Both the position numbers and the translations under genes were made by a program. DNA of 64,000 bases from Selaginella tamariscina (Eukaryota; Streptophyta; Lycopodiopsida; Selaginellales; Selaginellaceae), in contig PUQB01000022.1 in assembly GCA_003024785.1 (NCBI GenBank), forward strand, positions 876,001-940,000, read 5' to 3'. This document shows, one piece after another, positions 342-57,700 of the stretch (position 1 is the first letter of the stretch; each line of letters begins with the position of its first letter). The notes under the pieces are model-generated. The model did no database searches, was not told the DNA's origin, and saw nothing but the letters and a program-made list of their open reading frames with translations.

Positions 342-1372
342 AATGATGGATGCCCTAAACGAACTTCGAGGGGATGTTTGGGTTGAACGACCGAATCGAT
401 AATGTTGCCGTTCGGATTCCGACGAATACTGCAGTGCCAGATGTTCCGCAACCAGACACACGGAAAAAGAAGAAGAAGCATGACTCAGAGTCAGGTTCCT
501 CTGAATCAGATTCTTCGACGGAAGTAGGTGGTGGAGGTCCCAGTAAATTCAAACCGGTAAAGCCTTCGAATTTCATGGGTTCAAAGGATTACAAGGTTTT
601 GGATGACTGGTTGTATGATATGGAAAGCTATTTCGAGGCTGCTTCCGTGAGAAAGACAGAAAAGGTTGCATGTGCCAAGCAGTTTCTTAAAGAAGAAGCT
701 AAGACTTGGTGGCGAATTGTTGAAGGTGAACGTGGATACCGAAACAGCTGGAAGCACATGAAAAAGGAGATCAAAAAGCAGTATATGCCGGATGATCTCG
801 GTTTGCGATTGCGTGCTGACCTGGCACTTTGTCAACAGGGAGTTCGGGGAAGTCCAATGGACCACGTTTATCGATTCGAAAGTGTACGGCGATTGGTGCC
901 AAATATGAGCGATGATGAAGCTCGAAGTTGCTTCATGGCTAGCTTGAATGAGAAACGCGAAGGAAATCTTAAGGTACAAGCCAACAAGCTATCGGGAATG
1001 TCAAGAGGCAGCTCAAAAGGTTGCTTATGGCATGTCGTTAGAAGACTTGTACAAAGGGGAGGAAGCAAAACCTAAATCAAGGAGGTTTCCTCCAAAGTCT
1101 GGGTTCAGAAGGTTTGATAGGCGACCAGATCAACCATCAATTCGAAGTGCAAGTCCCTTTGTTGGCAGTTCCAAGTTTTCGGACACATCAAGACCCACCG
1201 GATTTCGGAAACCATTGGCGTTACCACCTCCTCAGCAGGCCAAAGGATCGGCTCCAAAGTCTGCTCCCCCGCGTTCCGCAGGCGGGGTGTGAAATGTTAT
1301 AATTGTAACAAGCCTGGTCATTTTGCTAAAGAGTGTCGGCACCCTCACAACAATCAGGACATTTCAAGGCGA
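342..1372 (+). pseudogene. Chromovirus gag, frameshifted
   Basis: Encodes the structural protein that packages the element RNA. A Lys run (KKKKKH) and an acidic/Ser stretch precede a retrotransposon gag domain (about 550-960) with the family pattern of WLYDMESYF, AKTWW and a following KKEIKKQY. A CCHC zinc knuckle (CYNC, GH, C) is at 1295-1336. The domain parts fall in different frames: there are breaks near 375, 960-1000 and 1290. A domain search on the three-frame translation would settle the exact break points. Identification as gag is firm; functionality is unlikely as written. Confidence 0.85.
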
Positions 1373-4222
1373 TGGTAGAAGAGGAAGTTGCTGAACCAGA
1401 AACGCTTGAAGATCCGGAAGATGAGTCAGAAGAGGTAATGTTGTGCCAGACACAACCTGCCTTATTCGCTATTCAAGACAAAACTGACCCTTTGCTATAT
1501 TTGACAGGAAGGATACGAGGGGACCGAGTCCGAATGATGATCGATACTGGAGCAACATACAACTTCATATCGACTAGTCTAGCTCGTCGATTGAATTTGG
1601 ATGTAATAAAGATGTGTGAAATAAAGATCAATTTTGGCAAAGGTTCTCAAAATACTAATAATATAGCAAGGGCAGTTCCTGTCCAAATCAAAGATTGGAA
1701 GGCTAAGCTAGACTTAGTTGTCTTGAATATGACGGGGTTTGACTTTTTTGGGTATGGAATGGTTCCATAAACATGTAATCGAAATGAGGGGTTCGGAGAT
1801 AATCGAATCACGCTTGCAGCAGATAAAGAGACATTAGAAAAACACGCTCAATGGAAACGCTAACTGATAAGGATTGGAATCCTATGTTCCTTACCTTAAC
1901 TCAGTTGCGTAAGGCAGTTAGACATCGGGAACGTGTGTTTCTTGCAATGGTTTTGGATACTGGTGAAGTCAAAATAGGAGATGGTCAAGAATCTGTTCCT
2001 GAACCTATTTTGGAAGTCTTGAACATGTTTAAGGATGTGTTGCCAGAAGACTTGCCGCCGAGTTACCTCCACGTCGAGCTGTGGACCACAGATAGAGATT
2101 TTGCCAGGTTCGTCTCCACCGGCAAGAGCCCCATATCGGTTGAATCCTCAAGAGTTAGTAGAATTGAAGAGACAGCTGACAGAATTGATTGGTCGAGGAC
2201 ACATTCGACCTAGTCGATCACCGTATGGTGCACCTATCTTGTTTGTAATGAAAAAGGATGGTACGATGCGAATGTGTGTGGACTATCGAGCGCTGAACGC
2301 GATAACTATCAAAAATAAGTATCCTCTTCCACGAGTGGACGACTTATTTGATAGGCTATCAAAAGCAAAGTATTTTTCAAGAATAGACTTGAGATGGGGT
2401 ACCATCAGATTCGGGTAGCAGAGAATGACATTGAGAAGACCGCTTTTCGAACGCGTTATGGATCATTTGAGTTTCTAGTCTTGCCATTCGGGTTGTGCAA
2501 TGCTCCAGCAACTTTTTGCACAATGATGGATGATGTGTTTAGAGACTATCTAGACGAGTTCGTAGTGGTGTATATTGATGACATTCTGTTTTCAGTTCGA
2601 CAATTGAGGAACATGTGGAACACTTAGAAAAAGTGTTTCAGAGGTTGAGAGAGAACCAGTTGTATGCTAAAGAAAGCAAGTGCGCATTTGGTCAAACCAA
2701 GATAGATTTCTTGGGACACTTGATCTCAGGTGGGGAGGTTGCCATGGACCCAAAGAAAATTCAAGCTATTACGAGTGGATGACTTTAAAAGATGTGCATG
2801 AAGTTAGATCATTTCTTGGTCTGACAGGGTATTACCGAAGATTCATAAAGGGTTACTCGGAAATAGCGGCCCCATTGACAGATCTTACGAAGAACATTCC
2901 ATGGCATTGGACTCCAGAGTGCCAACGTGCATTCGTCAAACTCAAAGAGGCTATCTCTTTTGCAGTTGCCCATCTTTGAAGATCCCTTTGAAGTAGAATG
3001 TGACGCTTCCGACTTTGCAATTGGTGGTGTATTGCAACAGAAAGGACATCCAGTGTCCTTTTTCTCGAAGAAGTTAGATGCCGCGCAAACTCGATGGCCT
3101 ACTCACGAAAAGGAGATGTATGCTATTGTTGCTTCCTTGGAGTATTGGCGTCATTATCTTCCAAGTCATGGCACTGTGGTTTGGACAGATAGTGTAACTC
3201 TAAGGTATTTTGAAACGCAGCCGAAGCTATCGCCAAAGTATGCTAGATGGCAGCAGAAGTTGGCACGATTTCAGCCTGAAATCAGACATAAGGCGGGAAA
3301 GGACAATGTGGTAGCGATGCACTCAGTAGGAAGGGTCATCTTCGTGTTATGTCAGCACCCGTGTCAACTTTGGTGGATGAATTTGTGACGGCGTATCCTC
3401 AGGACAAGTTTGCTAAGGAGGCTTTGAGCCTGGTGGCAAAGAGGAAACAAGTTCATCAATTACGAAGAGATGGTAATATTCCAGCAGGAATAGAAAGTCG
3501 AATGGATGCACTCAAACAGGCCCATTTTGCAGTACGAGATGGAGTTCTTTATTATAAAGAAAAGAGACTCTATGTTCCAGAAGGGACATGGAGGGAGAGG
3601 CTATTAAGAGAGCATCACGACGTTCCTTTGGCAGGCATGGTGGAAGGCACAAGACGTTGGCTTTGTTGAAACAGGGATTCTATTGGCCGGGTATGATAGA
3701 TGATGTTGCCAAGTATGTCAAGACATGCCCCACATGTCAACAAGTAAAGAGTCGATCGCAAAAACGAGCTGGGAAGTTACATGTATACCGATTCCAGAGC
3801 GGCCATTTCAAAGTGTTACTTTGGACTTTATCATGGGATTGCCAAAATCTTGTGGTTTTAATGCTCATGGTGGTCGATCGTTTTCAAAGGTTGCTCATTT
3901 CATTCCAACTGTAGAGACAGTGAATGCAAAACAAGCAGCAAAGTTGTTCTTCCACGAAGTCGTAAGAGTGCGACTACCGGAAACGATGATCTCAGATCGG
4001 GATCCTCGTTTACTGGAAGTTTTGGGGAACGTTGTTAAGCAATTTGGACGATGCTGAGGTTTAGTAGCTTATCATAAAGATGGTCAACGGAGAGGGTAAA
4101 CCGACAAGTCGAGGACTATCTCAGATGCTATGTTCAAGGTGATCAACTTGATTGGGCTGAACACTTAGATATGGCTGAGATATGTTACAATAACTCGACA
4201 CACTGCAATCGGATGTAGCCCG
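1373..4222 (+). pseudogene. Chromovirus pol: protease, reverse transcriptase, RNase H, integrase (frameshifted)
   Basis: Protease active site DTGA is at about 1543. Reverse transcriptase runs from about 2150 to 2750, with the FSRIDL block near 2380 and the catalytic YIDD box at 2571-2582. RNase H starts with DASDFAIGG near 3002. Integrase shows an HHCC zinc finger (HH near 3615, CPTC near 3727) and the DDE core with LDFIMGLPKS and SDRDPR (near 3825 and 3990). The domains lie in at least six separate frame segments, and stops occur between them. This identifies a Ty3/gypsy polyprotein; it is not translated intact from this copy as written. Confidence 0.9.
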
Positions 4223-4869
4223 ATGGAAGTGTTAACTGGGAATAAGGGTGGTATTCCTCAGAGTATGGTGTTACCGAAAGACGATAGCAATCGAGTTCCA
4301 TCTGTAGCAGAGTTCACGGGACAATTGTATCGAACATGGGAAGCTGCTCGTCAAGCGATGGCTGCAGCACAGGAAAGGTATCGTCAGCAGTACGATAAGC
4401 ATCGGCGGGATGTAGAGTATCAGGTTGGGGATATGGTATTGTTGAGTACCAAAAACCTGAAGGTTCCAATGACTCTTTCGAGGAAGTTTCTATCGCACTA
4501 CATAGGTCCATACAAGGTGGTGAAGCAAGTAGGGAAAGTGGCTTATGAGTTGGATCTTCCTCCAGAGTTGGGAACAATACACAATGTGTTTCATGTCAAT
4601 TTGCTCGAGCCATTCCACAAAGATGAGAAACATCCGCAAAGATATGAAAACTTACGTCCCCCCCTGAGCTGGTTCATGAAGGTACGGAGTACGAAGTCGA
4701 ATCCATATTGGGCAAAAGGAAGGTTTATGGACCGCGAAAACGTAAGTTTGAGTATCTCGTCAAATGGAAAGGCTATCCAGCGTGCGAATCGACATGGGAA
4801 CCATTGGAGAATCTACAAAACGCGATGGAGTTGGTGAATGAGTTTGAGGCAAGGTCTCAAACTAATTAA
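4223..4869 (+). pseudogene. Integrase C-terminal region and chromodomain of the chromovirus
   Basis: The integrase C-terminal part carries a GPYKVVKQVGKVAYELDLP block (about 4505-4560) and an HNVFHVNLLEPF block (about 4580), typical of gypsy integrases. After a frameshift near 4655, a chromodomain follows to the TAA at 4867-4869: it includes EYLVKWKGYP and STWEPLENL. Chromodomains at integrase C-termini read histone marks and steer insertion to heterochromatin in the family. The whole domain after the break is open and well conserved, which argues that the copy is fairly young. Confidence 0.88.
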
Positions 4870-6306: not shown

Positions 6307-7317
6307 CAAGGTATGACTATTTCTGTTTTCCCTATTTATGAAGTCTTCACACCACCAATCCAGTTGCACCCCACATAGTCCGCTCAAATAATTTTTCTAG
6401 CACACTGCCGCACATCAGTGTTTGCTATACACTGGCTAGGGATTTCCTCTCACGTAACGTGTGTTAAGCACATTATAGCTCTCCAAACTCAACACATACA
6501 AATTTTCACACACAAAAATATAACTGGCTTTCTACAGTTTAATTGCAGCAGCTCAAAGTTGTGTTTTTTATTTGTGTGTGTGTGCATGTGTAAATTTGTA
6601 GATAAGTTTATCCGAGTGGAGAATATAAATAAAAATGAAATATTGTTTACATTTTTTTTGATATTTACAATTGTTAGTTTATGTTTGCCAATTGACAAAG
6701 ACAGGATGAAATAAATTATTAAAGTGTACAAAAGAGATTTGGAAACCACAGTTTAAAAAGATTTTGAAATTTTGAAATTGCATGCCCTAAAATGCATGAA
6801 TAAATAAGATCTATAATAAAATATAATTTAATAATATATTCTATTCAAACCATAATTTTATTTAAAAAATATTTGACCTTTTATGTTTAAATATTACTTA
6901 ATTGGATGACTTAAGTTTTATCTACTGTATGTGTTGTTAAAATTACTTAAATACTCCATCATTAAATTCTTAATATCAATATACATACGTATAACTCTAT
7001 TATATGTATAATGCGTCTAAATAGGTTATTCCATCATTATATATATAATAAAAATAATATTAATAATTATACAATATCAATTATATTAATAACAATTTAT
7101 TTTTGATGATATGAAATTTATATATATAATATAATCATTTAATTGCATACATCCATGATATAGCATCGCATAAGTCTACCACTTATGCATGAAATAACAA
7201 TTGTATATTAATTTTTAGGTTGAAGATTGAACTAATTATGTATGTATTAGATATAATATATATGTGTATGTTATTTTTATGTCTATTACAATGAGGGCCT
7301 TAATATGAATTGCCCAT

Positions 7318-8230
7318 AACTCTCACACACACATTGTAAATCAAATTAGATTAAGTACTTGTTCATAGTTAACACGTCTTTTATTAAGTTTTTTTAGATT
7401 TCATCAGTGTAATTTTATATACTTTTAGATCTATTTGTAATTACTTATATTATTTAATACAGATTATGCACATATAGATTGGACTTCATAATGTTTTGCA
7501 TAAATGGAGTTGTAAACAATCTAATATCTGCATATTCCAGATCATATACAATTATTTACGTAGTTATACAACAAAGATGTGTTCCCATGACCTAATTTGA
7601 ACCACGTGTTTTAATGTTTTTAAAACCTTTGTACGGATTTTAAAAATATACGGTAGAAATCTAAATATCTAGACACAATGACTAACACACACACATTGTA
7701 ATTCAGGTCAGATTACATAGTTAACACGTTACATCAGTGTAATTTTTATATACTTTAGATCTATTTCTAATTACTTACATATTTAATAAAAGCATACAGA
7801 TTATGCACATATGTATTTATAAAATGAGATCGTTAAAGTTTATTTTGAATAGAACCAAGTTTTTTTCTTTCATGCTAATTGGTGCACAAAATTTACATAA
7901 TTATTAAGTTTAGAATGAACATTAAATAATTTCATAATGTTTTACATTAAATTTAATCTCAATGTTGACACATTTATATATTGGATGAGATATTATGTAT
8001 GGGAGTTGTAAACAATATATTGCTTGTCGACCAGATATGTCCTAGGATATACCATGAGCATTCGCATATTCGAAATCATATACAATTATTTACGTACTTT
8101 TCTTGCCACAAAGATGTGTTCCCGTCACCTAACTTTGAAACTTATCACAAATCTGTAATGTTTTCTTTAAGATTTTTCAATCCGTCACGTGTTTTAAAAC
8201 CTTTGTACGGGTTTATTAAAATATACGGTA
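7318..8230 (+). repeat. Internal tandem duplication within copy A
   Basis: The block starting CTCACACACACATTGTAA at about 7320 recurs at about 7685 (ACACACACATTGTAATTCAG) with the same following landmarks: ATCAGTGTAATTTT, ACTTTAGATCTATTT, CAGATTATGCACATAT, GAGTTGTAAACAAT and AAAGATGTGTTCCC. Copy B (around 21240-21590) has the block once. The duplication therefore arose after the two segments separated, or was lost in B. Confidence 0.75.
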
Positions 8231-8275
8231 TCAAATTTTATTTATTTTAGACAGAAGCAAGTGACATTGATAAGA

Positions 8276-9037
8276 TCAAAAGCTCTGGATGGAAGAGTTA
8301 GAGGGACAAGGGCCCTCAAAGTAGACACCAATACCTTTCATATACGCATCAGTACTTGCATACCCCCAGAATCCCAGTACATTCCCTTCACTCGACTCGA
8401 ACGGAGTCCCACTTGTAGAGGCTCCATAAGGACCATAAGTCTCTGTTTTTGCCACTATCCTTCTTCTTTGTATGAATAGAAAGCCGCGTGATAACCCTTT
8501 AGCCATCCAGCACACATTTTGTATCTTGTCCAGTGTATCCAGATATCTTGTAGATGTACTCATTTGGGTAGTCCAATCTATCTGGTTAAACAAAAACAGA
8601 TTTATTAGTCAAAACCTATATAAGTTACTCAACAACTTATATTACCTGATTCTGGTTTGCGTTGGATTTAGTTCCATGAAGTTCCAGCCAGTCATGAGCT
8701 TCCCCATTATCCACCTGGACCTGGACAGCATCTATAATACAACAGCCACTTATAATCCTTCACCTTGACACACCTTGAGATGCACCATCGTCGAAAAGGG
8801 CACCGCCATCTTGTGTACCGTAGAGAGGGGATTTACAAAGGGCGGAGGAGGCGGAGGAGGTGAAGATGGGCACCACGGAGGTACATTGCCGCAGTTTCCC
8901 CATGTGCTGCAGCAAGGGAAGTCTGGCGGGCAGTCTGCATCGGTGGAGCACGAACCAGGTGGTGGCGAGGCGGGGTGCACATAGATGGGGTGGAGAAGTA
9001 AAACGAAAGCAAAGACAGCAGGGAAACTGATGATTAT
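8276..9037 (-). pseudogene. Secreted hevein-like/jacalin-like lectin, copy A (frameshifted, start altered)
   Basis: Two-exon gene, intron 8582-8645 (GTAATA...TTTAACCAG). Exon 1 encodes a hydrophobic signal-like stretch, then a Cys-rich segment (CSTDADCPPDFPCCS, WGNCG) resembling a hevein/chitin-binding fold, then a poly-Pro linker. A jacalin-like domain follows, with GGALFDDGAS in exon 1 and GPYGASTSGTPF, GNVLGFWGY and GIGVYFEGP in exon 2; such domains bind carbohydrate. The linker-to-jacalin join needs a frame change near 8840, and another lies in exon 2. The ATG used in copy B reads AGT-like here, so initiation is doubtful unless an upstream ATG serves. Domain names come from motif recognition and need a profile search. 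Confidence 0.65.
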
Positions 9038-9340
9038 TGATTGATCGGACAATGTAGAAAGCTTGTATGATTGTGTTCTATGTGATCTAGCTTGCTTTAA
9101 GGTACAAGCCCACGTTCTCCACGCTACTGCCCGACATATCTGCAATCTTATCCCCGTACAATGATTTCTTCCACAAAAAAGTTATTAAAATGTAGCATAG
9201 ATGCGAATGACGTGTGAGACTCAAACGTGTCCGAGAAAGACGATATAGATTATTCTGTAGAAAAGTTTCAAAATTATGCAATGGGAACATAAAAAGAATA
9301 TGATTATATTCTTTAAGTTTGAACAAAAATTCAACTTTAT

Positions 9341-11689
9341 TAGCTGGTTGGGGCTCTTGCTTGGTTAACAGCAACCTAATAATGAAAAATAGTTAAACAG
9401 CCCTCTCTACCCTAGCAACCCATATTGGGCTGGCCCTTTTATGAGTTTGGAAAATGAGTTAGTGCACAACTAACGAGTCAGCATGTAAAAGATGATTTGT
9501 TGATCAGAACAAATCCAATTGGATTCCTACCTGGTTGTGTGCATTGATTTACACGAAGTCAACGGCTAGAGACTTGAGTTCGTGGAAAACCTAGTCAATG
9601 TCAATGTTGACTTAGAGGGAGCCACGGTAAGCCATCGTTATTGTCTTATTAGTTGACAACGAACCCAAGAAGGATTCATTTGTGTTGTACACCACCAAAC
9701 GGTACATATTTTAAATATTTATGTGGGATTATAATTTCATTGTTCTTTATTATCTTTTGGGCTTTTTACTTGTGCTTTTCACAATGCTTTTGATTTTGGT
9801 GGATACGAGAGATTGCGCACAAATCTTAGGGACAAGGCTGATTTACATTTTATTGAGTACCTACAACATCTACAATGAAATTTCTGGCGCTTGTACAATG
9901 GGTGTTATTCACCGACTAAGTTTTCATGTACTAGACAACCTTAAAAGAGTTATGGAACATAAAGTACAACAGTGATGGCAAGTTAACAATCCATTCCAAG
10001 ACAGTGTTTTAGACCAAGAGAACTTAAACAAGAAAGAGGTGAAGGGTAGGTGCGTGAAAGTGAAGATCAAGTAGAGAGAGAAAAGATTTAAAAGTGCTTA
10101 GATGATGAATAATCAATGGTTCATTTGGGTACAAATACTCTTTATAGAAATTTTAGACTAGTTGGTTAAAGAATACATGAATGAGTAATAGTAAATGCAT
10201 TTTTTATTCATATAGCCAAGAGTAACCCATCATTAAAGCATTAATTAATGAATGGAATTTATTAATATAATTTAATTAGTACATGTATCTCATCACACAT
10301 TCATTAAGATGCACATTAACAAGAGGAGCTTTTCCATTAACACCCACATTAATTAGAGTTGTATGATTATTAACAATGACATTGAATTACATTAGTCGAG
10401 CTCAGTCAAAGAAGTTATAGAATTTAAAATTTTATTTGCAAGATGTTTGAAGAGATTAATAACGATTAGGATGAGAACACACTAGAGTGGGTTGTCTTAA
10501 ATTACTTACTTTTAAAGGTATGTTGAGAGCATTTAATAAATTTGTAAAGATGGTGAGTTTTTGTTATTAATAAAATTGTAAAAAGGTTGCAATCATCCCA
10601 TAGGATACTGAGGATGTTGAATAAAGAAAATCTTAACACATAAAACATAATTGCAGTCATCATTAATGGCCCGTATTAAGAAACTATCGGAATAAGAAGA
10701 GAAAGTATATAGATCAGATTTTAAAAGGTCGAAAAAGAGTAAGGATGGTAAGGTATGTAGTAGGTAATAATAATGTAGATCCTATTACAGTTTTGAGAAA
10801 CGAATAATATACATTAATAAATGTTGATAAACAAATAATATACATCAAAACTGAAAAATAAGTAAGAGAAGATATATTGAAAGTAAGATAAAACTTATAT
10901 TATGTCCACACACGGCACATAATATAACATACAGTATATTGGATATGCTCTCCTAATCCTAATTTGGTATATTTATACCCTTACTCTTGTTTATGTACTG
11001 GTAATAGTGGTTATCAAACTTCTTCTTAATTTTTATAATGTCAGTTATTGTAATTCTTTATCCTTATCCTAATGTGCCGTACTCCATCTTAAATATCGTA
11101 TTACAATAGTAAGTCCATTGTATTGTATTATGATAATGATCATAATTCCATATTTTCATTTTTTTTTACGATATATATATTTTTGCGTATTTTTCCTATT
11201 ATATGCCAAAAAATAAACATAACTAAAAAACTTCTAAACTACAATCCTAACAATGATATCTAATCATAGCACATATATAACCAATTGACGTGACGTTAAT
11301 GAAAGAATTGTCGGATGGAAAACATAAGTGTACGAGGAAGTGCATTCCGTGGGAAAAAAAAGATCAAATAAGGAGCATGGACTTAAAATTTCTTGGTATA
11401 GGAATGAAAAGGTCAAGAACGGAAATGATATTATGTAAATTTTAATGAGCAATACTTGTTATAATGGATGCATGTTAGCATATATACATCACTATTATTT
11501 GAGAATTTAATTATAATAAGCAAGGGTTGAAATAATTACAATTAGCACAAAATAATATTCTAAAATTGTATCCAACATAGCCTAACAACGTTGTAGAAAT
11601 TACATAGAATTTTAAAATTTTCTTCAATTTTAATATGGCTGAAAGTTCACAAATTCAACAAGACAAATCATCGTCTGGTGCTGATGTCC
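9341..11689. other. AT-rich intergenic DNA
   Basis: No convincing gene. Short open frames (for example 9721-9975, hydrophobic, low complexity) have no recognisable motif. The stretch sits between duplicated segment A and the left end of the large DNA transposon. Confidence 0.6.
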
Positions 11690-11708
11690 AAAGGGGTCTC
11701 GGCGAAAA

Positions 11709-11856
11709 GGAGGCTCCGACTCAGGAGGCTTCATATTATTCTAGTATATTCGCGGATATTCCAGGTTTATTCTAGCATATTCTAGAATATTCTCAAGAAT
11801 ATTCTAGAATATATAAGTTTTTTTTAATATGCCGACTGGCTTAATAAAGCATTATC
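11709..11856 (+). repeat. Left inverted end of the large transposon
   Basis: GGAGGCTCC and CAGGAGGCTT, then several TATTCTAG/CTAGAATA palindromic words (11738-11815), a T run, and ATGCCGACTGG at about 11841. The right end repeats these elements in mirror order. Telomere-like CCTAAACCCTAAACC follows at about 11860. Confidence 0.65.
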
Positions 11857-12152
11857 CTAAACCCTAAACCATTTATCCTTGTAGCACCAGTGGGTCATGA
11901 ACTCTGCTGCAATTCACTAGCAAACGGTGGACCTCCATCTCACTGAGCGATCGCCTTTGTAGAAAATATGTGACGTCTGGGTTCAAGCCAAGCACACGAC
12001 TGTAGACAAAGTACATGTATACATATGGGCTCCAACTTTTGCTCTTCTAAAAGGTAGAACAACTGCATGTAGGATAAGTATTAATAGTCACATTTGCAGA
12101 GTCATTTCCTGCCGACACAACGAAAGCCTCCTTCCGTCCTCTAGCTGTCACT

Positions 12153-15026
12153 TCAACATTTCGCACATGACCTAAAAAACGTCTTGGCCTTGCGGAAATT
12201 CTTCTTGTTCCTTAGACATTTTTGTTGGAGTCCGGACCATACGTCCTTCGAAAGGTGGAATTGTTGTATATCCAGCTCCACATGGTGGCGATGGTGTTTG
12301 TCCCTCTGACCTTCATCTACTCTTCCTGCCGTCCCTTGTAAACCTTCCAGAACAAAGCCTACATCCTGTAGTTCTCTGACCTCCTCACTTGTCAGCTTCG
12401 TTTCCTTGAGCACAAGCCAAACCGTTGATGGTGTTGAAATTCGTGATTGAAGAATTTTTCCGTTTGGCCGCGTGAAACACCCTGAATCTTTGGGCAGAAC
12501 CACATCATCTGTTGTACATACTCCTCATTCCCCAAGGCATCAATGTACATTCATTTTCCATAGAATCCTGGTGCTGGCACTCTGCTTGGATAACCGATTG
12601 GTTTTCCACATAGAGCAGTTCCTTCCTGATTCATCCCCAAACACTTAACTTTACTGGATGCTCCGATTCGTCTGATGGCCCACTCTGTTTGAGCAATTTC
12701 TCTCTCCAAAACCTCTTCGAACCTTAACCTCTTTCTCTTGTTGTTTTGGACCACCCGCTCTGTGTACTCTGCATCATGTCTATGTGAACGTCGAGCATCA
12801 GACTGTTTCTGTTCCTGTGACTGTTCTCTTAATAGTTTGCACTCGAACGTTAGTGGTACTCATGAACTCCGGGCTGGTCAAGTGTTCCTCACCTTCCACC
12901 AGATTGATAATTGTTGATGGAGATACACTTTTCCCCTCAGAGAGTTTGCGTTGCACTCGTTTCAATAGAGTTTCCTTTGAAGCCCTGACCCTGTATACCT
13001 CCCTTCTATTGCCGCTTTCACCTTCGCACTCTGCATAAACTGTATCGGTGAGGTCTAACATTGTCGCCTCCAGCAGTGGTACTCTTTTGGCCAATCTTGC
13101 TCTCTCTTGCTCTCGCATGAATCACTTCAGCATTGTTTGTAGTTGGAACGCTGCGAGTCCTTCTTCTGTCATGTTTCCCAGTTCCGCCATTGAGATGTGG
13201 TCCTTATGCCTGATCCCCAAGACAGCCATGTCGTCAAAGCTCGAATGTTTGACGCTCGTCCTTCCCAAAAAGACTCGAGAATTGCCAGTTGTTCTTTCTT
13301 AGATTGTTCATTCAGTGCTGCAGGCCAGGCACGAGCACGCTTCATGTGTTCTTCGCGATGTTCTTGATCCATTTCTTGTCACCTTGACGCACGGATTGCA
13401 TAAAGTGAAATAGACAGCTTCTTTCCCTCCCTTTCATCTTTGCTCCGTTGTTGAATACTTGGCGCAAGGCTATCCATATCGCTCCAGCCTCATCCGACAT
13501 GAAACCAGCAAAGTTGACATTCTCCAAACCCTGCTTCTTACAAACCTCTAGCATTGTGTTCAAGAACTTCAGCACTGCAACATTATCTTCGCGGCACATA
13601 TCTGCGTAAGCTATAGTCACCATGGATCTGACACTGCAAGAGAGCGTTAGATAACGAAGATTAGAAAGTGTTATGAAGAGTTTTACAACTTACAATGGGT
13701 CATAAAGGTGTATTCCAATTGTCGCCCAGTCTGGTATGCGGTGTGTGTGGTCCAGAACAACCCATTGATCATGAAGGTCTCCTCCACTTTGACACCTTCT
13801 GATGTACTCAACTCCTGAACCCGGTCCCTCAACTGTCATTTTGAAGATCAGAGGCTGCTCCTCAGCACCATGCAGTTCCATCCCTGGAACATGTATGACG
13901 TGAATGAAAGGTATTGGCAACTTTGTCTTCAGCTCCAGAAGACCCTCGTAACCCTCTCTAAAGTGTGTCTCCTTCTGTCTTGATTGTGTAATCCAGTCCC
14001 GAGTCCTAAAGAAAGGTCACGTCAGTGTTAGAGATCTAAAGAAAAATACCTTCGATGGTTTGTTAGAGGTTCAAGTTTTGAGAGTAAACCAGTGTACGAG
14101 ACTTCTCCTTCTTCCTTGAAAAGTTCTTCAAAGATGAGCTCACGCGGCTTGAAACTCAATCACTCGTTGATTGGTTCGCGGACTGCTCTTTACCACGTTG
14201 CTGACACTAGATCTGGCTCGCTGAACGTTTGAAGCTGACACTGAGGGGCTGACTGGATGCTGATGAACACCTCTGTGAATGAACAACCTTGTAAAAGAAA
14301 TGTCGTCTGGCAGAATGTAGTACACATAAGCCGGACAAGTGTGCACCAGCAATGGCTCCTCTCCACAATGCTTACATTTCATGCCTATTACTTTGCCTGT
14401 CTCAGTTGTCTTTGCCTTCTCCACAGCACCCTTGAAGTGACATTCATTTGCTTTCTTCTCAAAAGCCAAGTAGGGGCAGGTAGGATTGATGCATTTGAGA
14501 TGTCCGACACATGAACTTCGACTGACTCGCGCCGGAACATGCCAGTGTGTTGTGCTCGGGTGTGTCCAATGGTAGCAGCCATCCTTGCGATTCATCCCCA
14601 AGTACTTCTCTGTGCTTTCTTTCTTTGGGGGAAGTTCGTAAATGACATTTCCATTGTATATCTGCGTAGTTCAGAGACTCGTTTAACTTCAGACGAACCA
14701 ATGAGATCCTTCCCTATCCTACATTTGTCTGCTCTTAGAAGACACACCAGCATGGATTCCTCACGCTCCTCTGTCCGCAACCTGAACAACGGGCCCTTTG
14801 CCGGGCACAATGTGTAAAAGACAAACTGGTTTGATGCATTGCCTTCTGGTAACAACTCCACATCTTCTCCAGAACTCGCAGAAACTGACATCAATTGAAC
14901 CACATGTATACTGAACCAACAAGGAATGTTGAAAGCAATGTGAAGATCATGTTCAAACACAAAAGCATTTCCATCTTCATCGACTGGGAAATCTTTGTCA
15001 ATGCCTTCATAGGTAACTCTGGCCAT
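12153..15026 (-). pseudogene. MULE-superfamily-like transposase (DDE type), interrupted
   Basis: Read from 15026 downward. The N-terminal part (MARVTYEGIDKDFP) has no motif I know. A Cys/His-rich domain follows (about 14530-14330; CVGHLKCINPTCPY, ECHF, MKCKHCGEEP, HTCP, ending in HRGVHQHP) that should bind zinc and probably the transposon ends. The catalytic core has DHTHRIPDWATIGIHLYDP (first Asp, 13753-13695), FAGFMSDEAGAIW (second Asp, about 13505) and CLFHFMQSV (C..H block, about 13400), which matches the layout of Mutator-like transposases. Later segments (13118-12153) are charged and unassigned. Breaks between segments reflect introns plus at least one frameshift near 14620. Alternative: another zinc-finger DDE superfamily. 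Confidence 0.6.
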
Positions 15027-15515
15027 GACAACGCAAGGAGAAAGCTCGGTGGTTTAGGAAAGCAAAGCAAAAGATTAAACACACTCTTCGCCAAAAAAAA
15101 TTATAATCGTTGATAATAAACGTGAATACACGTTTGTATATAATTAATTCTATCGCTGCCCAGCTCACAGTGTTCTTAATGATGTCCTCTCTAGTATCAC
15201 CGATTTAATTTAATTACTACCTTTTATGATTTGAAATATCTTCACATTTACCAATTATTCACATATTTTAAAATAAACCCTAAATATTAATGTCACATTT
15301 ATTCCGTAGGGTTCACTGTTTTCATTGCGGCTAGGGTTTTTTGGTAGATAGGGTTTACTGTTTCCACTGCGGCTAGGGTTTTTCAATCTCAGATCTGTTT
15401 CCACTGCAGATCCGAGGGTTTTTTCAATCTCAGATCTCAGAGTTACGGTTTCCACTGCGGCGCCATCCATTTCGACTCGATTCGTGCAGCCCCAAGTATA
15501 TCAATGGAGATTTCT
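15027..15515. promoter_or_regulatory. Bidirectional promoter region of the transposon with telo-box repeats
   Basis: Lies between the divergent transposase and ParB-like genes. From 15300 to 15470 it holds an imperfect tandem repeat of TGCGGCTAGGGTTTTT and related TAGGGTTTACTG units, plus two AATCTCAGATCT blocks. TAGGGTTT is the complement of the plant telo-box AAACCCTA common in promoters of housekeeping genes. No protein-coding signal. Promoter function is inferred from position. Confidence 0.5.
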
Positions 15516-16183
15516 GTGCCGATTTAGATTGTCGGCACCATCCTGCTCAGTCGGCGGCCACAAGGTATGTGTAATTTCTGTATTTTATGATTTGCGGCTC
15601 AAAGTATTTCTTTTTTCAGAGATAAGGGTCTTCCCATTTGTGCCGACTGAGAGCGACGGCACCATCCTGGTTCAGTCGGCAACACAAGGTATTCGATTTA
15701 TTTATTTTTTTCTTGCGGCTCAAGTATCGTGTCACAATGTTTTTTTTAGAGTTAATGGTCTTCCATTTGTGCCGACTGAGAGTGACGGCACCATCCTGGT
15801 TCAGTCGGCAAACAAGGTATTTTGATTTTTTATTTTTTTCTTTGGGCTCAAGTATTCGTATCACAATGTTTTTTTTTCAGAGTTAATGTGTCTTTTTGTG
15901 CCGACTGAGAGTGACGGCACCATCCTTTCAGTCGGCAGCCACAAGGTATTTTGAATTTTTTTTATTTTTCTTTGCGGCTCAAGTATTTCTTTTTTCAGAG
16001 TTAATGGGTCTTCCCATTTGTGCCGTCTGAGAGGGACGGCACCATCCTATCTCAGTCGGCACCATTATCTCTTCAGTGCCGTCTGAGAGGGTCACACTAT
16101 CTCAGTCGGCAGGATTTGTTCTTCTACATCTCTCTGCCGACTGAGAGGGTCGGCACCATCTAGCTTGAGTCGGCAGCCACAAG
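15516..16183 (+). repeat. Tandem array of seven exon-like hairpins (GCCGACTGA / TCAGTCGGC)
   Basis: Seven units start at about 15516, 15641, 15769, 15899, 16021, 16076 and 16135. Each has TGCCGACTGAGAG or a variant, a central GACGGCACCATCCT, then TCAGTCGGC, so the outer arms can pair. Units 1-4 are about 125 bp apart and each is bounded by intron-like sequence: TTTTTTCAG before and ACAAG/GTAT after. Units 5-7 are about 55 bp apart, and unit 7 ends ACAAG/GTTAGT. The following TTTCCAG leads into the exon with the ATG at 16261. The array therefore looks like a multi-exon 5' leader of the downstream gene. The same GCCGACTG word occurs near both transposon ends. Confidence 0.8.
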
Positions 16184-16260
16184 GTTAGTCATCTTTGTTT
16201 GTTTTTTTATTTTGTCTCCTAATCAATTGACTTGTGTGTTTGCTTTCCAGAGTTTACAAA

Positions 16261-19200
16261 ATGGTGAGAGCTTCAAAACGTCTACTAGAGACTGCGCCTG
16301 ATGAAGAGCCACGGGAAGAGAAGAGGATATCGAAGCAGAAGCAGGCAAGAGAGGAGAACCATCTAATGTAGCAAAGGAGGATCCTCCAGTGACTCAGTCT
16401 GGAGTAGTACCAGTTGAGCAGGAGCAGCCTCCACCAACATCACAGATTTCCCGGAGAGCTCGTCGCAGTTGCCTCCTTCATCCGCTGAGGTTGCAGTCCT
16501 GAACGAGCAAGTGCAGATGACAGAGGCAGTTGAAGCTAGCGAGGACGACTTGGAGGAGGCAGTCAGCAAAAAGAGAGGCCGCGGGAAAGCTGATCCAAAA
16601 GGCAAGAAGGCGAAGAGCGATAAGGAGCCGAAGGAGTTATACAGCATACCGGCTAGCCTGCATTTGGAGAGCTCAGCGAACCTGCTCGACAAAATTACTG
16701 TCAAGGGACTTGGTGATCCTCCTGATGTGCCCATCTGTAGAATGCATTCGAACGAGGTGGTTCGACGAGTGAACCCAGGGGACTTGGACAGGCTGGTGTC
16801 ATCGTTGAAGAAGGCTGGTTATCTATGCAACACGGCCTTGTTCATTCTGTCCATCGGAGATCGACTCACTGCTGAGGAGCTATCGAGCTGTCGAAGGACA
16901 CGATTCAGTACGAGCAGCACCGGTCTTTCGAGCAAGCTCTTACTCAGCCGGAGTACAAACAGTGGGCTTCAAGGCTCTCAAACCGGAAGTTCAGCTGCTG
17001 GACGGGAACCATAGGCTACAGGCTTTGCAGAAGCTGTACCGGAGGATGCAGAGGACAACCAGCGATGGGCTATTCGTGTTCGATCGAGTTTCATCTCCAC
17101 GGAGAACCTCGACAATCTTCAACTGGTTTCGATGTTCCAATCGATTAACATGTGAGTATTTTCTTTTCTTTTTGTTAAGAGTTTAGACTTACAGTTTCAT
17201 TGAACAGATCTTCAGCAACATCTGTGGAAACAACGCTACCACATATTCTCCTCGCTGTAAAGGCGGTCTGCACTAGTACAGAAGGAACTCAGAAAATCCT
17301 CGAGTCACTCACGGAGGTTGATCGTCTTGAGGTGCGGAAGTGGAAGGAGAGTTCAACAGGAAAGACGGCTTGGCATCCTCTTCCGAACCTGATCTGCGCA
17401 AAGATCCTTTTCAAGGTAACCTCCGATTTATTTATAGGAAAGAAGTTTTTAACTTATTCTATGTGCAGAACGAGATCGACGATGATCTCGACAGAGCAGT
17501 CACCAGTGCTAAGGGCAATCCACAGTTGAGTGAACCTGAAGCAGCTAGTGTACAAGAAGCATGACAAGCGTATGCACAAGTTCCTCTCCATCATAGACCC
17601 AGACTTGGGGGAGGAGTGGTTCCAGAAGGTGACGAACATCTCTCATAAGCAGTGTCGCTGGATGGGCATTGAGAAGCTGTATGCGATGTCAAAGGCAAGA
17701 TTCAAACATGCTGTGACTCCGATACTTGAACAAGCTCACCCGTCTCGAATCCAAGGCAAACAACAGACACTTGGGCTACCAGGCATGCAGGACAAAGAGT
17801 GGATCAAGTGGTTCACCTTGGACTTATATTGGAAGGCTGTGCGCGAGGAAGCCATTCAGATCCTTAAGGGTTGCGAGAGGATGGTGAAGAAGTTGGAACG
17901 GATGTCGACTTCATGAGCTGGTTTGACGAGATGAAACTCGGAGCAAGTGCCTGGTCTTTCAGCCCTTCCATGACTGCATACGGTTCACTTATTCGATGGA
18001 GCCGAATGAGTTTCTGGAGCGTGAGGAGTCTGCGCGTCGGATGATATGGAGGTAAGCTTTCATTCCAGCATTGCTACTGTCTGACTTTGTGTTACAGGTT
18101 CATACTGGCGAAGAAATGGCACCGTCTCAGACGATGAAGCTGTGGACAGATCATACAAGCGAGCCTCACATGTGGTCGAAGAGCAGAGGAGCTCTAACAC
18201 CGTTCGAACGGGAGCATGTTCCATTCTGGCTCGACTGTCCGTCGCAACAGCCACCAGCTTGGGAGAGCTCACTATTCGACGTGCACGGCAATGATCTACC
18301 AGCGATTGTTTGGGAGCCGGAAAAGTAGAGGCTATCAAGAAGAGCAAGATGAAGAAGACGGTGCGGAAGACAACTACACCTGCAAAGGGATCGGGAGCGG
18401 GACCAAGCTCTTCTACAGCACCTCCCGGCAATCGACTTTACAATCAATGAGGTGCAGCCACTTGTAGCTAGTTTGGACATCAAGGACGACCTGATGACCT
18501 TCATCCCGACCCTGGCTGCATCCCGTGGATCCTACGACCTGCTGTGTGCGATATGGAGGAGATGAGCAGGTCTTTCTTCGAGCCGGGTCCCAGACAGGTG
18601 TACACCAAGCTCCGACAACAGGTTGACAGACTACATACGGTGAGTCACAAACGTGTTCCAGGAAGTGGTAGGTGAATACGGCTTCAACCTCATCATCCTC
18701 GACTTGCCCAATGAGCTTGTATATGGAGGTGCTAGCATCAACAAGGACATTGTGCAGCTAGATCCGGTGAAGTTTGAGGAGGCCTTGCAGTTCAGTGGAA
18801 TGCACTTGGCAGCGAGTGGTTTCATGGTCGTCTTCGCGAGTTCTCCTTCTGTTTCGGCAGTGATTCAGGCGGCTGCAGTAATCAACTTGGAGGTTGCAGG
18901 GACTTACAGCGTCTACCGTGCACAGGCTGGGGATACCGTGACAAAATTAAGGTAAGCTAGCTATTCAAGTTCAAGTTTAACTTGGTCTATGTGGCAGGAT
19001 AACTTGTTAGTTCTCTTGGTGCTGCAAAGCTCTGAGAAGAAGTCGAAGAGGCCAAACCCTCTGGCGTTGACGAACACGATCCTCGTCGACACCGCCGACC
19101 GTTTTCAGGAGGCTTGGTAAGGAAGTACTTTGCTTTGTTTATCCTAATGGAAGTTTGTGCAGGATGATGATTCAACCGAAGAGTGTTCGACTCATGCAGC

Positions 19201-19456
19201 TTTTGATCGAGCGTCTCAGTAGACCTGGCGACTAGTCTGGGATATTGGTTCCGGAACCGGGTCATCGTTGTTAGCTGCTGTCGAGCTCGAAAGGAATATT
19301 ATAGGAACCGAGAAGAGTTTCAACTTTCTAGGTTGGCAACAAACAAGCTCGCAGAGAACATTAGACCAGAGAATTACCTACTCAAACACCTCCACGTCCA
19401 AGCGTAGCTGGTGGTTCGAGAACTGCAGCTTTATTAAGATGAAGAAGAAACTTTAA
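16261..19456 (+). pseudogene. ParB-like domain plus DNA methyltransferase-like protein encoded by the transposon
   Basis: Starts MVRASKRLLE at 16261, after the hairpin leader. A basic, Lys-rich segment (KKRGRGK, KGKKAK; possible nuclear localisation) precedes a ParB-like domain: PICRMHSNEVVRRV and the hallmark LLDGNHRLQALQKL (about 16990-17035), which resembles the GxRRxxA box. The middle (17200-18330) is unassigned. The C-terminal part has FNLIILDLPNEL (18683-18718), resembling methyltransferase motif IV, then PGD..VWDIGSGTGSSLLAA (about 19225-19285), resembling the AdoMet-binding motif I. The motif order IV then I is that of beta-class N4-cytosine/N6-adenine DNA methyltransferases, and ParB-methyltransferase fusions are known from phages and bacteria. 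Several introns are visible; at least four frame breaks, one a single base before motif I, leave activity open. Substrate and base specificity cannot be read from the sequence. Confidence 0.6.
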
Positions 19457-19527
19457 CTAATGTATATTGAGTAATAAATTAAGTTAATATAAAAAAAATA
19501 AGATAGAAATACAACAGTTTTAATAGA

Positions 19528-19636
19528 ATTCTTTTTTGCCGACTGGGCCAATACTGCTGACCAGAAAGAATATTCTAAAATATTCTAGAATATTCTAGAT
19601 ATTCAAGCCCAGGCCTCCTGGGCCCCAAGCCTCCAA
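19528..19636 (-). repeat. Right inverted end of the large transposon
   Basis: TTGCCGACTGGGCC at about 19538, then AATATTCTAAAATATTCTAG palindromic words (19570-19601) and a terminal stretch whose complement reads GGAGGCTTGG and CAGGAGGCC, mirroring the left end at 11709. The two ends differ by many substitutions. Confidence 0.65.
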
Positions 19637-19660
19637 AATGGCGGCACTCTGGCCAAAGCA

Positions 19661-20267
19661 TTGGACAAAGAAGTTAACAAGTTCATACATAGTCTTCAAA
19701 CATAAATTAACGAAAGGGAGACACCCATAGTTAATTTCAGATAAATGTTAAAGGAACAAGGAAATAGATTGGAGGAGCATAAACTGATAAAATAACAAAT
19801 TAATAGAAATATAAAAATTCATATTTGAATATAGGAAATTTATAGACGATGGACTAAACAGAAGAGATATAGCATTTTTAAGATATCAAGAATCACAAAC
19901 ACTACACAAACAAGATGGAGTTGCACATTAACACAATGGCTCAGCTGCAAACACTGAGCTTAATGCTATTGAGTAGTTATCTCCGTTGGGTTCATAGGCT
20001 AACCTAATGTCTTTTCTTAATTTAATGTTGGATTAATTTAAATAAATAGTGTAATAAATTGTTGGCAAACCTTTATTTGATTTTGGACCAACCTTGAATC
20101 GTTTCATAAATATAATAATAATAATTATTAATTAAAATTGAAATTCATTAAAATTCTCATCATATTTATTTGAGTGAGCATGGGTCGGTACATTTGAAAG
20201 TTTGAATGTGAATTTAAATCAAAGTTAATTGAAGAAAAAAAGTAAAGGTGGTTATAGGCAAGGTACT
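19661..20267. other. AT-rich spacer between transposon and duplicated segment B
   Basis: No gene-like open frame or motif seen. Confidence 0.6.
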
Positions 20268-22727
20268 GTTTCCCCTATTTATGAAGTCCTCACACCACCA
20301 ATCCGGTTGCACCCCACACAGTCAGCTCAAATAATTTTTCTAGAGTACTGCCGCACGTCAGTGTTCGCTATACATTGGGTAGAGATTTCCTCTCACATAA
20401 CGTGTGTTAAGCACATTACAGCTCTCCAAACTCAACACATACAAATTCTCACGCACAAAAATATAACTGGCTTTCTACAGTTTAATTGCAACAGCTCAAA
20501 GAGTTGTGTTTTTGATTTGTGTGTGTGTGTGTGTGTGCATGTGTAAATTTGTAAATAATTTATCCGAGTGAAGAATATAAATTAAAAATGAAATATTGTT
20601 TACATTTTTTTTTGAAATTTACAATTGTTAGTTTATGTTTTGTCAATTGACAAAGACAGGTTAAAATAAATTATATAAAGTGTACAAAAGAGATTTGGAA
20701 ACCACAGTTTAAAAGGATTTTCTCTCTTTATAATTTTGAAATTTGCATGAATCAAATAAGATCTATAATAAAATATAATTTAACAATATATTCTATTCAA
20801 ACCAAAAATTTGTTTAAAAACTATTTAACCTCTTAATGGATGACTTTACTGTATGTGTTGTTGGCATACATGTGTTAAAATTACTTAAATACTCCATCAT
20901 TTAAATTCTTAATATCAATATACATACGTATAATTCATTATATGTATAATGCGTCTAAACTAGGTTATATTCCATCATTATATATATAATAAAAATAATA
21001 TTGATAATTATACAATATCAAATATATAATAAAATTTATTTTGATGATATGAAATTTTATATATGTAAATATAATCATTTAATTGCATACATCCCATGAT
21101 ATGAAATAACAATTGTATATTTATTTTTTTAGGTTGAAGATTGAACTAATTATGTATGTATTAGTATAAATATATGTGTATGTTATTTTTATGTCTATTA
21201 CAATGAGGGCCTTAATATGATTGCCCGATAACTCTCACACACACATTGTAAATCAAATTAGATTAAGTACTTGTTCATAGTTAACAAGTCTTTTATAAGT
21301 TTTTTAGATTTCATCAGTGTAATTTATAATACTTTAGATCTATTTGTAATTACTTATATTATTTAATACAGATTATGCACATATAGATTGGACTTCATAC
21401 TCATACATGGAGTTGTAAACAATCGAATATCCTGCATATTCCAGAGTCAATTCTATACCAACAAAGATGTGTTTCCCATGACCTAACTTTGAAACTTATT
21501 CACAAACGTGTTAAGTTGTCTCAATCCCACACGTGTTTAATGTTTTTAAAACTTTTGTACGGATTTTTAAAAATACGGTAGAAATTTTATATCAAACTTT
21601 ATTAGAAGCAGGTGACATTGACAAAGATCAAAAGCTCTGGATGGAAGAGTTAGAGGGGACAAGGGCCTCAAAGTAGACACCAATACCTTTCATATACGCA
21701 CTAGTACTTGCATACCCCCAGAATCCCAGTACATTCCCTTCACTCGACTCGAACGGAGTCCCACTTGTAGAGGCTCCATAAGGACCATAAGTCGCTGTTT
21801 CGCCACTATCCTTCTTTTTGTATGAATAGAAAGCCGCGTGATAACCGCTTTAGCCCATCCAGCACCACATTTGTATCTTGTCCAGTGTATCCAGATATCT
21901 TTGTAGATGTACTCATTTGGGTAGTCCAAATCTATCTGGTTAAACAAAAACAGATTTATTAGTCAAAACCTATATAAAGTTACTCAACAAACTTATATTA
22001 CCTGATTCTGGTTTGCGTTGGATTTAGTTCCATGAAGTTCCAGCCAGTCATGAGCTTCCCATTATCCACTTGGACTGGATAGCATCTATAACACAGCCAC
22101 TTATTATCTTCACCTTGACGACACCTTGAGATGCACCATCGTCGAAAAGGGCACCGCCATCTTCTGTACCATAGAGAGGGATTTACAAGGCGGAGGAGGC
22201 GGAGGAGGTGAAGATGGGCACCACGGAGGAACATTGCCGCAGTTTCCCATGCACTGCAGCAAGGGAAATCTGCTGGGCAGTCTGCATCGGTGGAGCACGA
22301 ACCGGGTGGTGGCGAAGCGGGGTGCACAGAGATGGGGTGGATAAGTAAAACTAAAGCAAAGATAGCAGGAAACATGGTGATTAATTGATTAATCGGACAA
22401 TGTAGAAAGCTTGTATGTTTGTGTTCTATGTGATTGCTATTTAAACCTGCAAGCCCACGTTCTTCACGCTACTGCAATCTCATCCCCGTACATGCTGCAA
22501 TATTATCCCCGTACAATTGATTTTCTTCGACAAATTAAGTTTATAGAAATTTAACATGTATTGTATTGAGGATACATGTGGATGCGGAGAGACAGAAGAA
22601 ACGATATAGATATGTAGAAAAGTTTCAAACTTACGCAATGGGAACACATGTCGGATGTGACTAAAAAAATATGATTTAAATTAAGATATTTAAAGTAAAT
22701 TATTAAGTTTGAACAAAATTCAACTTG
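20268..22727. repeat. Segmental duplication, copy B (contains lectin gene copy B)
   Basis: Direct-orientation partner of 6315-9340. The left border is shared at CCCTATTTATGAAGTC and the right border at AAGTTTGAACAAA.TTCAACTT. It lacks the internal 0.4-0.5 kb duplication of copy A. A (TG)n run near 20519-20537 is longer than in A. Confidence 0.9.
21628..22375 (-). pseudogene. Secreted hevein-like/jacalin-like lectin, copy B (frameshifted)
   Basis: ATG at 22375 opens a clear signal peptide (MFPAIFALVLLIHPISVHPA), so this copy decides the start. The Cys-rich hevein-like segment follows (CSTDADCPADFPCCSAW). A frame change after CCSAW leads into the NCGNVPPWCP and poly-Pro linker, and another into the jacalin-like part; then comes a segment with NKWLCYRCYPVQVDNGKLM. 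The intron is 21936-22001. Exon 2 carries DYPNEYIYK and the same C-terminus as copy A, ending SNSSIQSF. At least three single-base breaks relative to a continuous frame remain. Because both copies keep the same domains in the same order, the ancestral gene was functional; whether B is dead or mis-assembled is open. Confidence 0.65.
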
Positions 22728-55919: not shown

Positions 55920-56068
55920 ATGATAAATATATGCAACCTATATGCACCCATGCTAATATAGTCTTTGTTGCCATGTCCACAAATGTGATCAACAATTCGT
56001 GTCATAGCCAATGCGAACTTCTCAATAGAAGCGTTCTTTTCCCTCCTCAACTCTAATGTCCTTTCAAA

Positions 56069-56814: not shown

Positions 56815-57700
56815 TTGCTGCTGGGCTTCATGGGTGGGGCCGGAGGTAGAAAGCCTGGCAGCAGTTGCTGTTGGGCTTTGGGCCGCCCCATGAGCTCGGC
56901 CAGCCCAGCCAGGGGTGGCAGAAAGCCCGGCAGTAGTTGTCGGGCTTTCTACTGCCCCATGAGCTTGGCCAATGCTGGCTGAACTCAAGCCAGTCCAACC
57001 AGGGCGGCAGAAAGCCCGACAACAGTAGCTGCCAGGCTTTGGGCCGCCCCATGAGCTCGGCAATGCTAGTCGAGCTCAAGCCAGGCCAATGCTAGCCAAG
57101 CTCAAGCCAGGCCAATGCTAGCCGAGCTCAAGCCAGGCCAATGCTAGTCGAGCTCAAGCCAACCCAGCCAGGGGCGGTAGAAAGCCCAGTAGCAGTTGCT
57201 GTCGGGCTTTCTGTTGCCCCATGAGCTCGGCCAATGCTGGCCGAGCTCAAGCCATCCCAACCAGGGGCTGCAGAAAGCCCAGCACAGTTGTTGCCGGGCT
57301 TTCTACTGCCCATGAGCTTGGCCAGCATTGGCTGAGCTCAAGCCAACCCAGCCATAATTGGCAGAAAGCAGGCAGCAGTTGCTGCCGGGCTTTCGACCAT
57401 CCCATGAGCTCGGCCAACCCAAGCTCAAGCCAGCCCAGCCATATCGGCCGAAAGCCTGGCAGCAGTTGCTGCCGCGCTTTCGGCCGGCCCTGAGCTCGGC
57501 CAATGCTGGCTGAGCTCAAGCCAGCCCAACTAGAATTGGCAGAAAGCCCGGCAACAGTTGCTGCCAGGTTTTCGGCCGGCCCATGAGCTCGGCCACTGGC
57601 CGAGCTCGTGGCATCCCAACCAGGGGTGGCTAAAGCACGATAGCAGTTGCAATCGGGCTTTGGGCGCCCCTTGAGCTCGAATAGAGCTGGTGAACCTAGT
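56815..57700. repeat. GC-rich tandem hairpin array inside the Harbinger element
   Basis: About nine units of roughly 90-100 bp, with centres near 56870, 56940, 57020, 57195, 57285, 57375, 57465, 57555 and 57640. Each holds two palindromes: AAAGCCCGGCAGCAGTTGCT with its mirror GCCGGGCTTTC, and GAGCTCGGCCAATGCTGGCC with GAGCTC. One 30-bp piece (CAAGCCAGGCCAATGCTAGC) is repeated three more times at 57080-57145. The array lies upstream of ORF1. Confidence 0.9.

Follow-up and report, generated by a model that had tools for sequence, protein, structure and literature searches.

Genes that join a ParB-like part to an N4/N6 DNA methyltransferase are known from transposons of algae. In the brown alga Ectocarpus, the DNA transposon Sola1-1_Ec32 carries such a gene on the strand opposite the transposase, and similar proteins have been cited for green and red algal transposons (PMC12477816); ParB was not found in the accessible part of PMC12636532. 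Among the VANDAL Mutator-like elements of Arabidopsis, the accessory protein VANC21 binds a 9-bp motif that is densely arrayed and has been amplified in tandem in the noncoding parts of its own element (PMC5735166). The element analysed here lies in a 64,000-nucleotide stretch of the Selaginella tamariscina genome (contig PUQB01000022.1, positions 876,001 to 940,000; hereafter, the window), which is part of the assembly of 300.7 Mb and 1,391 contigs that was searched. It is a DNA transposon of 8 kb, apparently Mutator-like, and in addition to its transposase gene it carries a second gene, which is under purifying selection and whose predicted product combines a ParB-like region with an S-adenosylmethionine (AdoMet)-binding methyltransferase body.

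A sequence-only reading of the window had known of no described plant transposon of this type, a statement that needs correcting in view of the brown, green and red algal cases (PMC12477816). Since ParB-methyltransferase genes are known from algal transposons, the gene is not of a new kind. As far as descriptions can be compared, Sola1-1_Ec32 resembles the Selaginella element in that ParB-like and amino-methyltransferase parts occupy one gene opposite the transposase of a DNA transposon. Nevertheless, Sola1-1_Ec32 is a Sola-1 element of 21.5 kb with a 1104-amino-acid protein (PMC12477816), whereas the Selaginella element is 8 kb long, Mutator-like by its target duplication, resident in a plant, present in at least 32 full-length copies and equipped with a D-L-P-N motif and leader arrays. 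The algal proteins were not recovered by sequence searches of protein collections, and no land-plant or Mutator-like case of a ParB-methyltransferase transposon gene was found in the open-licence literature searched. With VANC, the second gene shares, as far as array logic is compared, the position of a transposon accessory gene accompanied by dense arrays of a short motif, tandem-expanded in noncoding parts of its own element; unlike here, the VANC21 motifs lie in one orientation, and VANC is nowhere called a methyltransferase in the accessible part of that source (PMC5735166). Bacterial and phage ParB-methylase fusions such as Bce_0392 (PMC5512222) are alike by description in joining a ParB-type part to an amino-methyltransferase, while the Selaginella gene differs from them in being eukaryotic and interrupted by introns, in the long middle region that separates its ParB-like and methyltransferase parts, in a ParB part devoid of a profile match and in the asparagine of its motif IV. 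What sets the present case apart is an apparently different transposon superfamily, its occurrence in a plant, a changed active site and arrays that are candidate targets.

The second gene is laid out as follows.

15565-15619, 15689-15749, 15817-15880, 15946-15998 and 16184-16250, + strand: candidate leader introns of the GT...AG type (borders only)
16261..17149, + strand: coding exon 1, with a charged N-terminus and the ParB-like region; DGNHRLQALQKL at 17001-17036
17209..17415, + strand: coding exon 2
17469..18049, + strand: coding exon 3, its end taken from the reading of copy L037
18099..18951, + strand: coding exon 4, with motif IV, D-L-P-N, at 18701-18712, identical in 21/21 copies
18998..19117, + strand: coding exon 5
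19164..19453, + strand: coding exon 6, with AdoMet motif I VWDIGSGTG at 19235-19261 (DIGSGTG 19241-19261) and the motif II region IIGTEKS at 19298-19318

In this and all other 21-copy comparisons, 20 full-length copies fetched from the genome were taken together with the window copy; they belong to family A. The earlier coordinates of the gene, from an ATG at 16261 to a last coding exon ending near 19453, proved right, and the three motif blocks lie on the + strand in the order originally given, namely DGNHRLQALQKL, then FNLIILDLPNEL with its DLPN, and then LIERLSRPGD with VWDIGSGTGSSLLAA (19235-19279). The box first read as LLDGNHR is retained in its DGNHR portion, the leading LL being a product of a shifted frame, as 19 of the 21 aligned copies read WDGNHRLQALQ. 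The reading frame of the window copy is broken across the ParB-like domain, and its motifs lie in more than one frame, which demands many frame changes; other copies read through the motifs in exons. When all six frames of the 64 kb were scanned with five patterns, composed after the motifs had been seen, two ParB-box patterns matched once each at the DGNHR box, two motif-I patterns once each at motif I, and a fifth, extended methyltransferase pattern nowhere, compared with 0.0-0.01 matches per sequence and pattern in 100 simulated sequences with identical dinucleotide composition. Against 5.8 billion proteins, neither the read-through gene (at E ≤ 0.001; 7,989 candidates sharing most words scored) nor a composite from better-preserved copies (at E ≤ 0.01; 7,993 candidates scored) had a homologue, and a scan of viral contigs found none.

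The methyltransferase identity of the C-terminus was borne out by profile search, in which the joined exons of another copy matched PF01555 (N6/N4) with an E-value of 4.4e-9 (bit score 37.1; cut-off 26.7). This match supports a predicted N6/N4 DNA methyltransferase of the beta class. An hhalign comparison with five phage methyltransferases reached E 3.5e-14 over 65 columns, and the motif I block at the C-terminus aligns with those of the beta-class amino-methyltransferases MboIIA, DpnA and CcrM, from which the Selaginella protein differs in its diverged N-terminal half and its D-L-P-N catalytic motif. Motif IV (18701-18712) precedes motif I (19241-19261), and the latter is kept in all 21 family A copies and in a second family, B, described below. 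At motif IV, the hhalign match is in register but weak (P 0.016, probability 2.9). The motif departs from the catalytic pattern [DNS]-x-P-[YFW], reading DLPN in 21/21 family A copies and in family B, whereas five of six phage comparators, fetched from 241 records with a match, read DVPY, DPPY, DLPY, DLPY and SPPY (the sixth, L006, has no motif in its annotated gene). Since DLPN recurs throughout both families while the AdoMet site is kept, the asparagine is, judged from the alignments, a family trait rather than a product of decay.

The occurrence of N6-methyladenine in plants is disputed, and we are not aware of an established bacterial-type DNA amino-methyltransferase in plants. One alternative, along the lines proposed in the sequence-only reading, is that the protein is an active methyltransferase which, with the asparagine in motif IV, would place N6-methyladenine or N4-methylcytosine on its own element. 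Conservation of motif I and of the motif IV context over two old families is consistent with such activity, as are the retained first aspartate and proline of motif IV and the occurrence of DLPY in two of the six phage comparators. However, the asparagine of all 21 copies and of family B stands where five comparators have tyrosine, which counts against ordinary chemistry, and since it replaces the base-stacking aromatic residue, the protein cannot be presumed to methylate N6-adenine or N4-cytosine in the ordinary way. Active methylation of this kind is considered unlikely. The conservation of the AdoMet site nonetheless points to a possible role for a methyl mark or for the sensing of AdoMet. 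The predicted fold of a single motif-IV fragment was uninformative (predicted local distance difference test score 33.8), and a plasmid tblastn search with the methyltransferase tail returned at least 5,000 records, with no ParB fusion among the 60 names listed.

A box of the D-G-x-H-R type is a mark of the ParB/sulfiredoxin superfamily. The ParB identity proposed for the N-terminal part was upheld with respect to the DGNHR box and its position before the methyltransferase, but not with respect to a significant profile match, none being found in Pfam, PHROGs or NCBIfam. The nearest profile, ddrB-ParB, reached E 0.17 with a fragment of 25 residues from the window, some of them read in a shifted frame, and E 0.22 with one of three aligned members; P1 DdrB did not match the ParB-like part, and searches of phages, plasmids and the PDB with the ParB half gave matches at E 0.33 or worse only, one of which, when inspected, lay antisense to annotated genes. 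DGNHR is present in 20 of the 21 family A copies (in one with an unreadable preceding codon) and in both family B elements, the remaining copy reading DENHR. That the N-terminal part is ParB-like is suggested, though not proven, by the box, by its location ahead of the methyltransferase and by its conservation in two families. Such a domain might be a nickase or NTPase that aids excision or replication while the methyltransferase protects the DNA of the element itself, as nonspecific nicking has been reported for a ParB domain joined to an adenine methylase (Bce_0392, PMC5512222). With superfamily membership itself unproven, and with the arrays described below speaking for sequence-specific binding, this explanation is improbable.

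The second gene is under purifying selection. Over 953 codons projected on copy L027 (excluding the end of exon 3, where L027 breaks), the changes shared by at least two of the 21 copies comprise 24 nonsynonymous and 24 synonymous ones against an expected ratio of 2.27, which corresponds to an omega of about 0.44 with a p-value of 0.0047 that is approximate, since the copies are related and the mutation spectrum was estimated from the same data; no stop codon is among them. For the transposase, read in 12 of the 21 sequences (nine with an incomplete match were dropped) over three of four long exons, shared changes gave an omega of 0.51 (14 nonsynonymous to 12 synonymous, p 0.09, two shared stops) and private changes an omega of 0.91 (79 to 38, eight stops). 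Judged by these omegas, constraint on the second gene appears similar to that on the transposase.

Relative to the column majority of the 21 copies, the window gene shows 24 deletions (19 of a single base), no insertions and 53 substitutions, and all copies together show 185 deletions, 14 insertions and 407 substitutions. Natural decay yields far fewer insertions and deletions per substitution and less deletion bias; therefore, errors of long-read assembly in a repeat are possibly the likeliest cause of the frameshifts. Nine of the 19 single-base deletions in the window copy lie beside an identical base, which is about chance level, so the homopolymer sign of long-read errors is missing and such errors are unproven. 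That the gene is a decayed relic was considered and set aside, given the selection on shared changes and an indel pattern unlike natural decay. Elsewhere in the window, the cytochrome P450 (34868-36491) and PPR (49388-51340) genes each have two long open reading frames, in contrast to the broken frames of the transposon.

The boundaries of the element were drawn from the fetched copies, and the following features were located.

11694..19649, unstranded: whole DNA transposon, 7,956 bp in the window copy, with ends taken from 20 fetched copies
11685..11693, unstranded: left 9-bp target-site duplication, which agrees with its right counterpart at 8/9 positions
19650..19658, unstranded: right target-site duplication, 9 bp; the window pair matches at 8/9
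11694..11715, + strand: imperfect left terminal inverted repeat of about 22 bp
19628..19649, - strand: right terminal inverted repeat, imperfect
11737..11812, unstranded: left subterminal array of TATTCTAGAA / GAATATTC units of about 10 bp
19567..19604, unstranded: right subterminal array of AGAATATTCT units
11873..15026, - strand: transposase gene with introns, encoding a zinc-finger-like N-terminus, a D-D block, C-x2-H and a C-terminal SWIM-like CxC...CxH

The right end, 19649, is exact in 14 of the 20 fetched copies and within one base in four; the left end is reached in 14, seven of them exactly at 11694 and the rest at most 16 bases off, while six stop short in the fetched stretch. Both ends were located in 14 copies of family A, where the 9-bp duplications are perfect and in register in six and become so in two more after a one-base boundary shift; in the other six the duplication is imperfect, ambiguous, unresolved or absent. 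The terminal inverted repeats are matched in score by 38 of 1,000 shuffles of the outer stretch. Mutator-like transposons duplicate 8-11 bp of target, mostly 9 bp, and encode a D-D-E transposase with C-x2-H and a SWIM finger. Mainly because of its 9-bp duplication, the element is apparently best labelled a Mutator-like cut-and-paste transposon.

The sequence-only reading had placed the second gene in an 8-kb element with a DDE transposase; the element and a transposase-like gene were indeed found, although no Pfam transposase model matches the latter. Its motifs were read by eye (VVLDHTHR and GFMSDE as the D-D block, CLFH as C-x2-H), its SWIM finger scores below the cut-off (E 0.011, 15.7 bits against 19.6), and the read-through transposase had no homologue among 5.8 billion proteins at E ≤ 0.001. 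By these comparisons the transposase is divergent.

The second gene has at least 45 matches in the genome (40 of 890 candidates scored), at least 32 of them full length, the window copy included, with 96-100% identity. The median pairwise substitution divergence of family A is 0.76% over the 21 copies, and the element family is young and high in copy number. From 41 transposase matches, the 16 best ranked among those not previously known to carry the gene were chosen as a further set, and 901 bases were read at the expected place; the 3' part of the gene is present in 15 of these copies, L053 giving no match there; the possibility that all other copies lack the gene, raised as a refutation of the original proposal, thereby falls. 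Three of the 20 fetched copies (L019, L022 and L026) have no match to window positions 14690-15515 and carry extra sequence between the leader repeats and the gene; they are a structural subfamily.

PF01555 has at least 150 matches in the genome, all above the cut-off (150 of 739 candidates scored), and matched in 11 of 14 control genomes. Of the eight loci inspected, six belong to family A and two (L043 and L044) to family B, from which two elements, L046 and L047, were fetched. Family B has the same layout and 9-bp duplications (9/9 in L047; 8/8 of the bases shown in L046). Between the families, the ParB-like region is 58% identical, the surroundings of motif IV 53%, those of motif I 71% and the transposase core 79%, with silent sites saturated (pS 0.80-0.86). 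WDGNHRL, DLPN and WDIGSGTGSS are nonetheless identical. A and B are two old families that conserve both the motifs of the second gene and a TGCCGACTG half-site, which is arrayed in the leader of that gene.

15517..16175, unstranded: leader array of seven TGCCGACTGA ... TCAGTCGGCA half-site modules, the first with a diverged left half, partly in 129-bp tandem units
11830..11839, + strand: single half-site TGCCGACTGG inside the left end
19537..19546, + strand: single half-site inside the right end, with a counterpart near the right end of family B

The 129-bp repeats amount to 3.6 units with candidate GT...AG introns in between. Sites with at most one mismatch from TGCCGACTGA number 16 in the window. 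The element accounts for 15 of them, with 13 sites in its leader (15547-16175) and a single site inside each end, and at least one exact half-site pair is present in the leader of 20 of the 21 copies. The family B leaders contain seven (L047) or eight (L046) perfect CAGTCGGCATGCCGACTG palindromes at a spacing of about 40 bp. TGCCGACTG/CAGTCGGCA is the commonest 9-mer shared by the A and B leaders, with 9 and 16 occurrences (copies inside one tandem array not being independent) against two in the scarcer leader for the runners-up. The half-sites are convergent in A and back-to-back in B, and upstream of the second gene in both. Alignments between the A and B leaders are weak, with a best E of 0.001 at a few other places and 0.004 for the gene-proximal units; part of the array may therefore share a common origin.

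The leader array may alternatively work as RNA, with repeated hairpins in a spliced 5' leader serving translation control or small-RNA supply. Several family A units resemble small exons between GT...AG introns, and on folding, three of six units score better than almost all of 200 shuffled sequences (z -3.4 to -4.7), although the other three are unremarkable (z -0.8 to -1.7). In family B the half-sites stand back-to-back as perfect palindromes that leave no space for a loop; hence the half-site alone is kept and not the hairpin. The RNA explanation appears very improbable. As the half-site is kept while its arrangement changes, a protein that reads half-sites is favoured over an RNA hairpin. 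The TGCCGACTG half-site is probably a binding site for a protein of the element.

Transposases often bind subterminal repeats, and the single half-sites just inside both family A ends, like those close to the right end of family B elements, would suit arrays that serve the transposase or a host factor, with the methyltransferase-like gene acting elsewhere. Yet the dense arrays lie upstream of the second gene and not at the ends, which carry their own GAATATTC repeats in both families, and this alternative is regarded as clearly unlikely. The end repeats (GAATATTC / TTCTAGAA) adjoin the inner side of both ends in families A and B, and those of family B lie at 347-386 and 8254-8294 in L046 (reversed) and at 689-727 and 8497-8526 in L047. 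Their spacing, GAAnnTTCnnGAA, is presumably that of heat-shock elements; heat-responsive expression or a transposase site are possible roles.

Taken together, self-addressed regulation or anti-silencing by the second protein, which the element itself appears to need, seems the most likely function, with about even chances of being correct, and DNA modification is possible. According to this model, a protein composed of a ParB-like region and an AdoMet-binding beta-class methyltransferase body would recognize the TGCCGACTG half-sites clustered in its own leader and concentrate there. It would then act in cis on the chromatin or DNA of the element, so that the leader stays open and the two genes can be expressed. 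The protein would thereby be a self-addressed anti-silencing or autoregulatory factor, with a logic like that of VANC of the Arabidopsis VANDAL elements.

Several observations weigh against this model. Private changes in the second gene (24 nonsynonymous, 16 synonymous, two stops) give an omega of 0.66 that is not significant (p 0.23), and the polymorphisms of related copies are not independent events. PF02195 has no match in the genome, though it matched in 10 of 14 control genomes, leaving the ParB assignment with the box. DLPN lacks the aromatic residue present as tyrosine in the five phage comparators, and the transposase or a host factor could be the binder of the arrays.

The surroundings of the element include a duplication (6323-9289 and 20266-22646, 84-86% identical) comprising a secreted cysteine-rich and jacalin-like lectin gene, in the spacer of which the transposon sits. 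A retrotransposon at 359-4834, of Ty3/Gypsy type as read from its open reading frames, has gag and RNase H domains in broken frames. A Myb/SANT-like DNA-binding domain (PF13837, 56072-56563) adjoins an unassigned open reading frame at 55485-55937, and the two possibly represent another DNA transposon. Beside the Myb/SANT-like reading frame lies a diverged tandem repeat array of several hundred bases (56842-57679).

More tentatively, and with considerable doubt, a plant Mutator-like lineage may be envisaged in which a ParB-like, AdoMet-binding protein encoded by the element, with a non-canonical D-L-P-N active site, reads the TGCCGACTG arrays carried along with that element and writes or guards a DNA mark there, the half-site being kept while most other leader sequence turns over; a horizontally derived bacterial module would then have been turned against plant silencing. 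As a young, high-copy and constrained transposon gene of bacterial amino-methyltransferase type, the second gene offers a defined candidate enzyme, a defined putative target word and numerous genomic copies in which long reads could be used to call modified bases. Beside VANC, the element may represent a second case of a plant transposon protein that recognizes its own family via amplified motif arrays.

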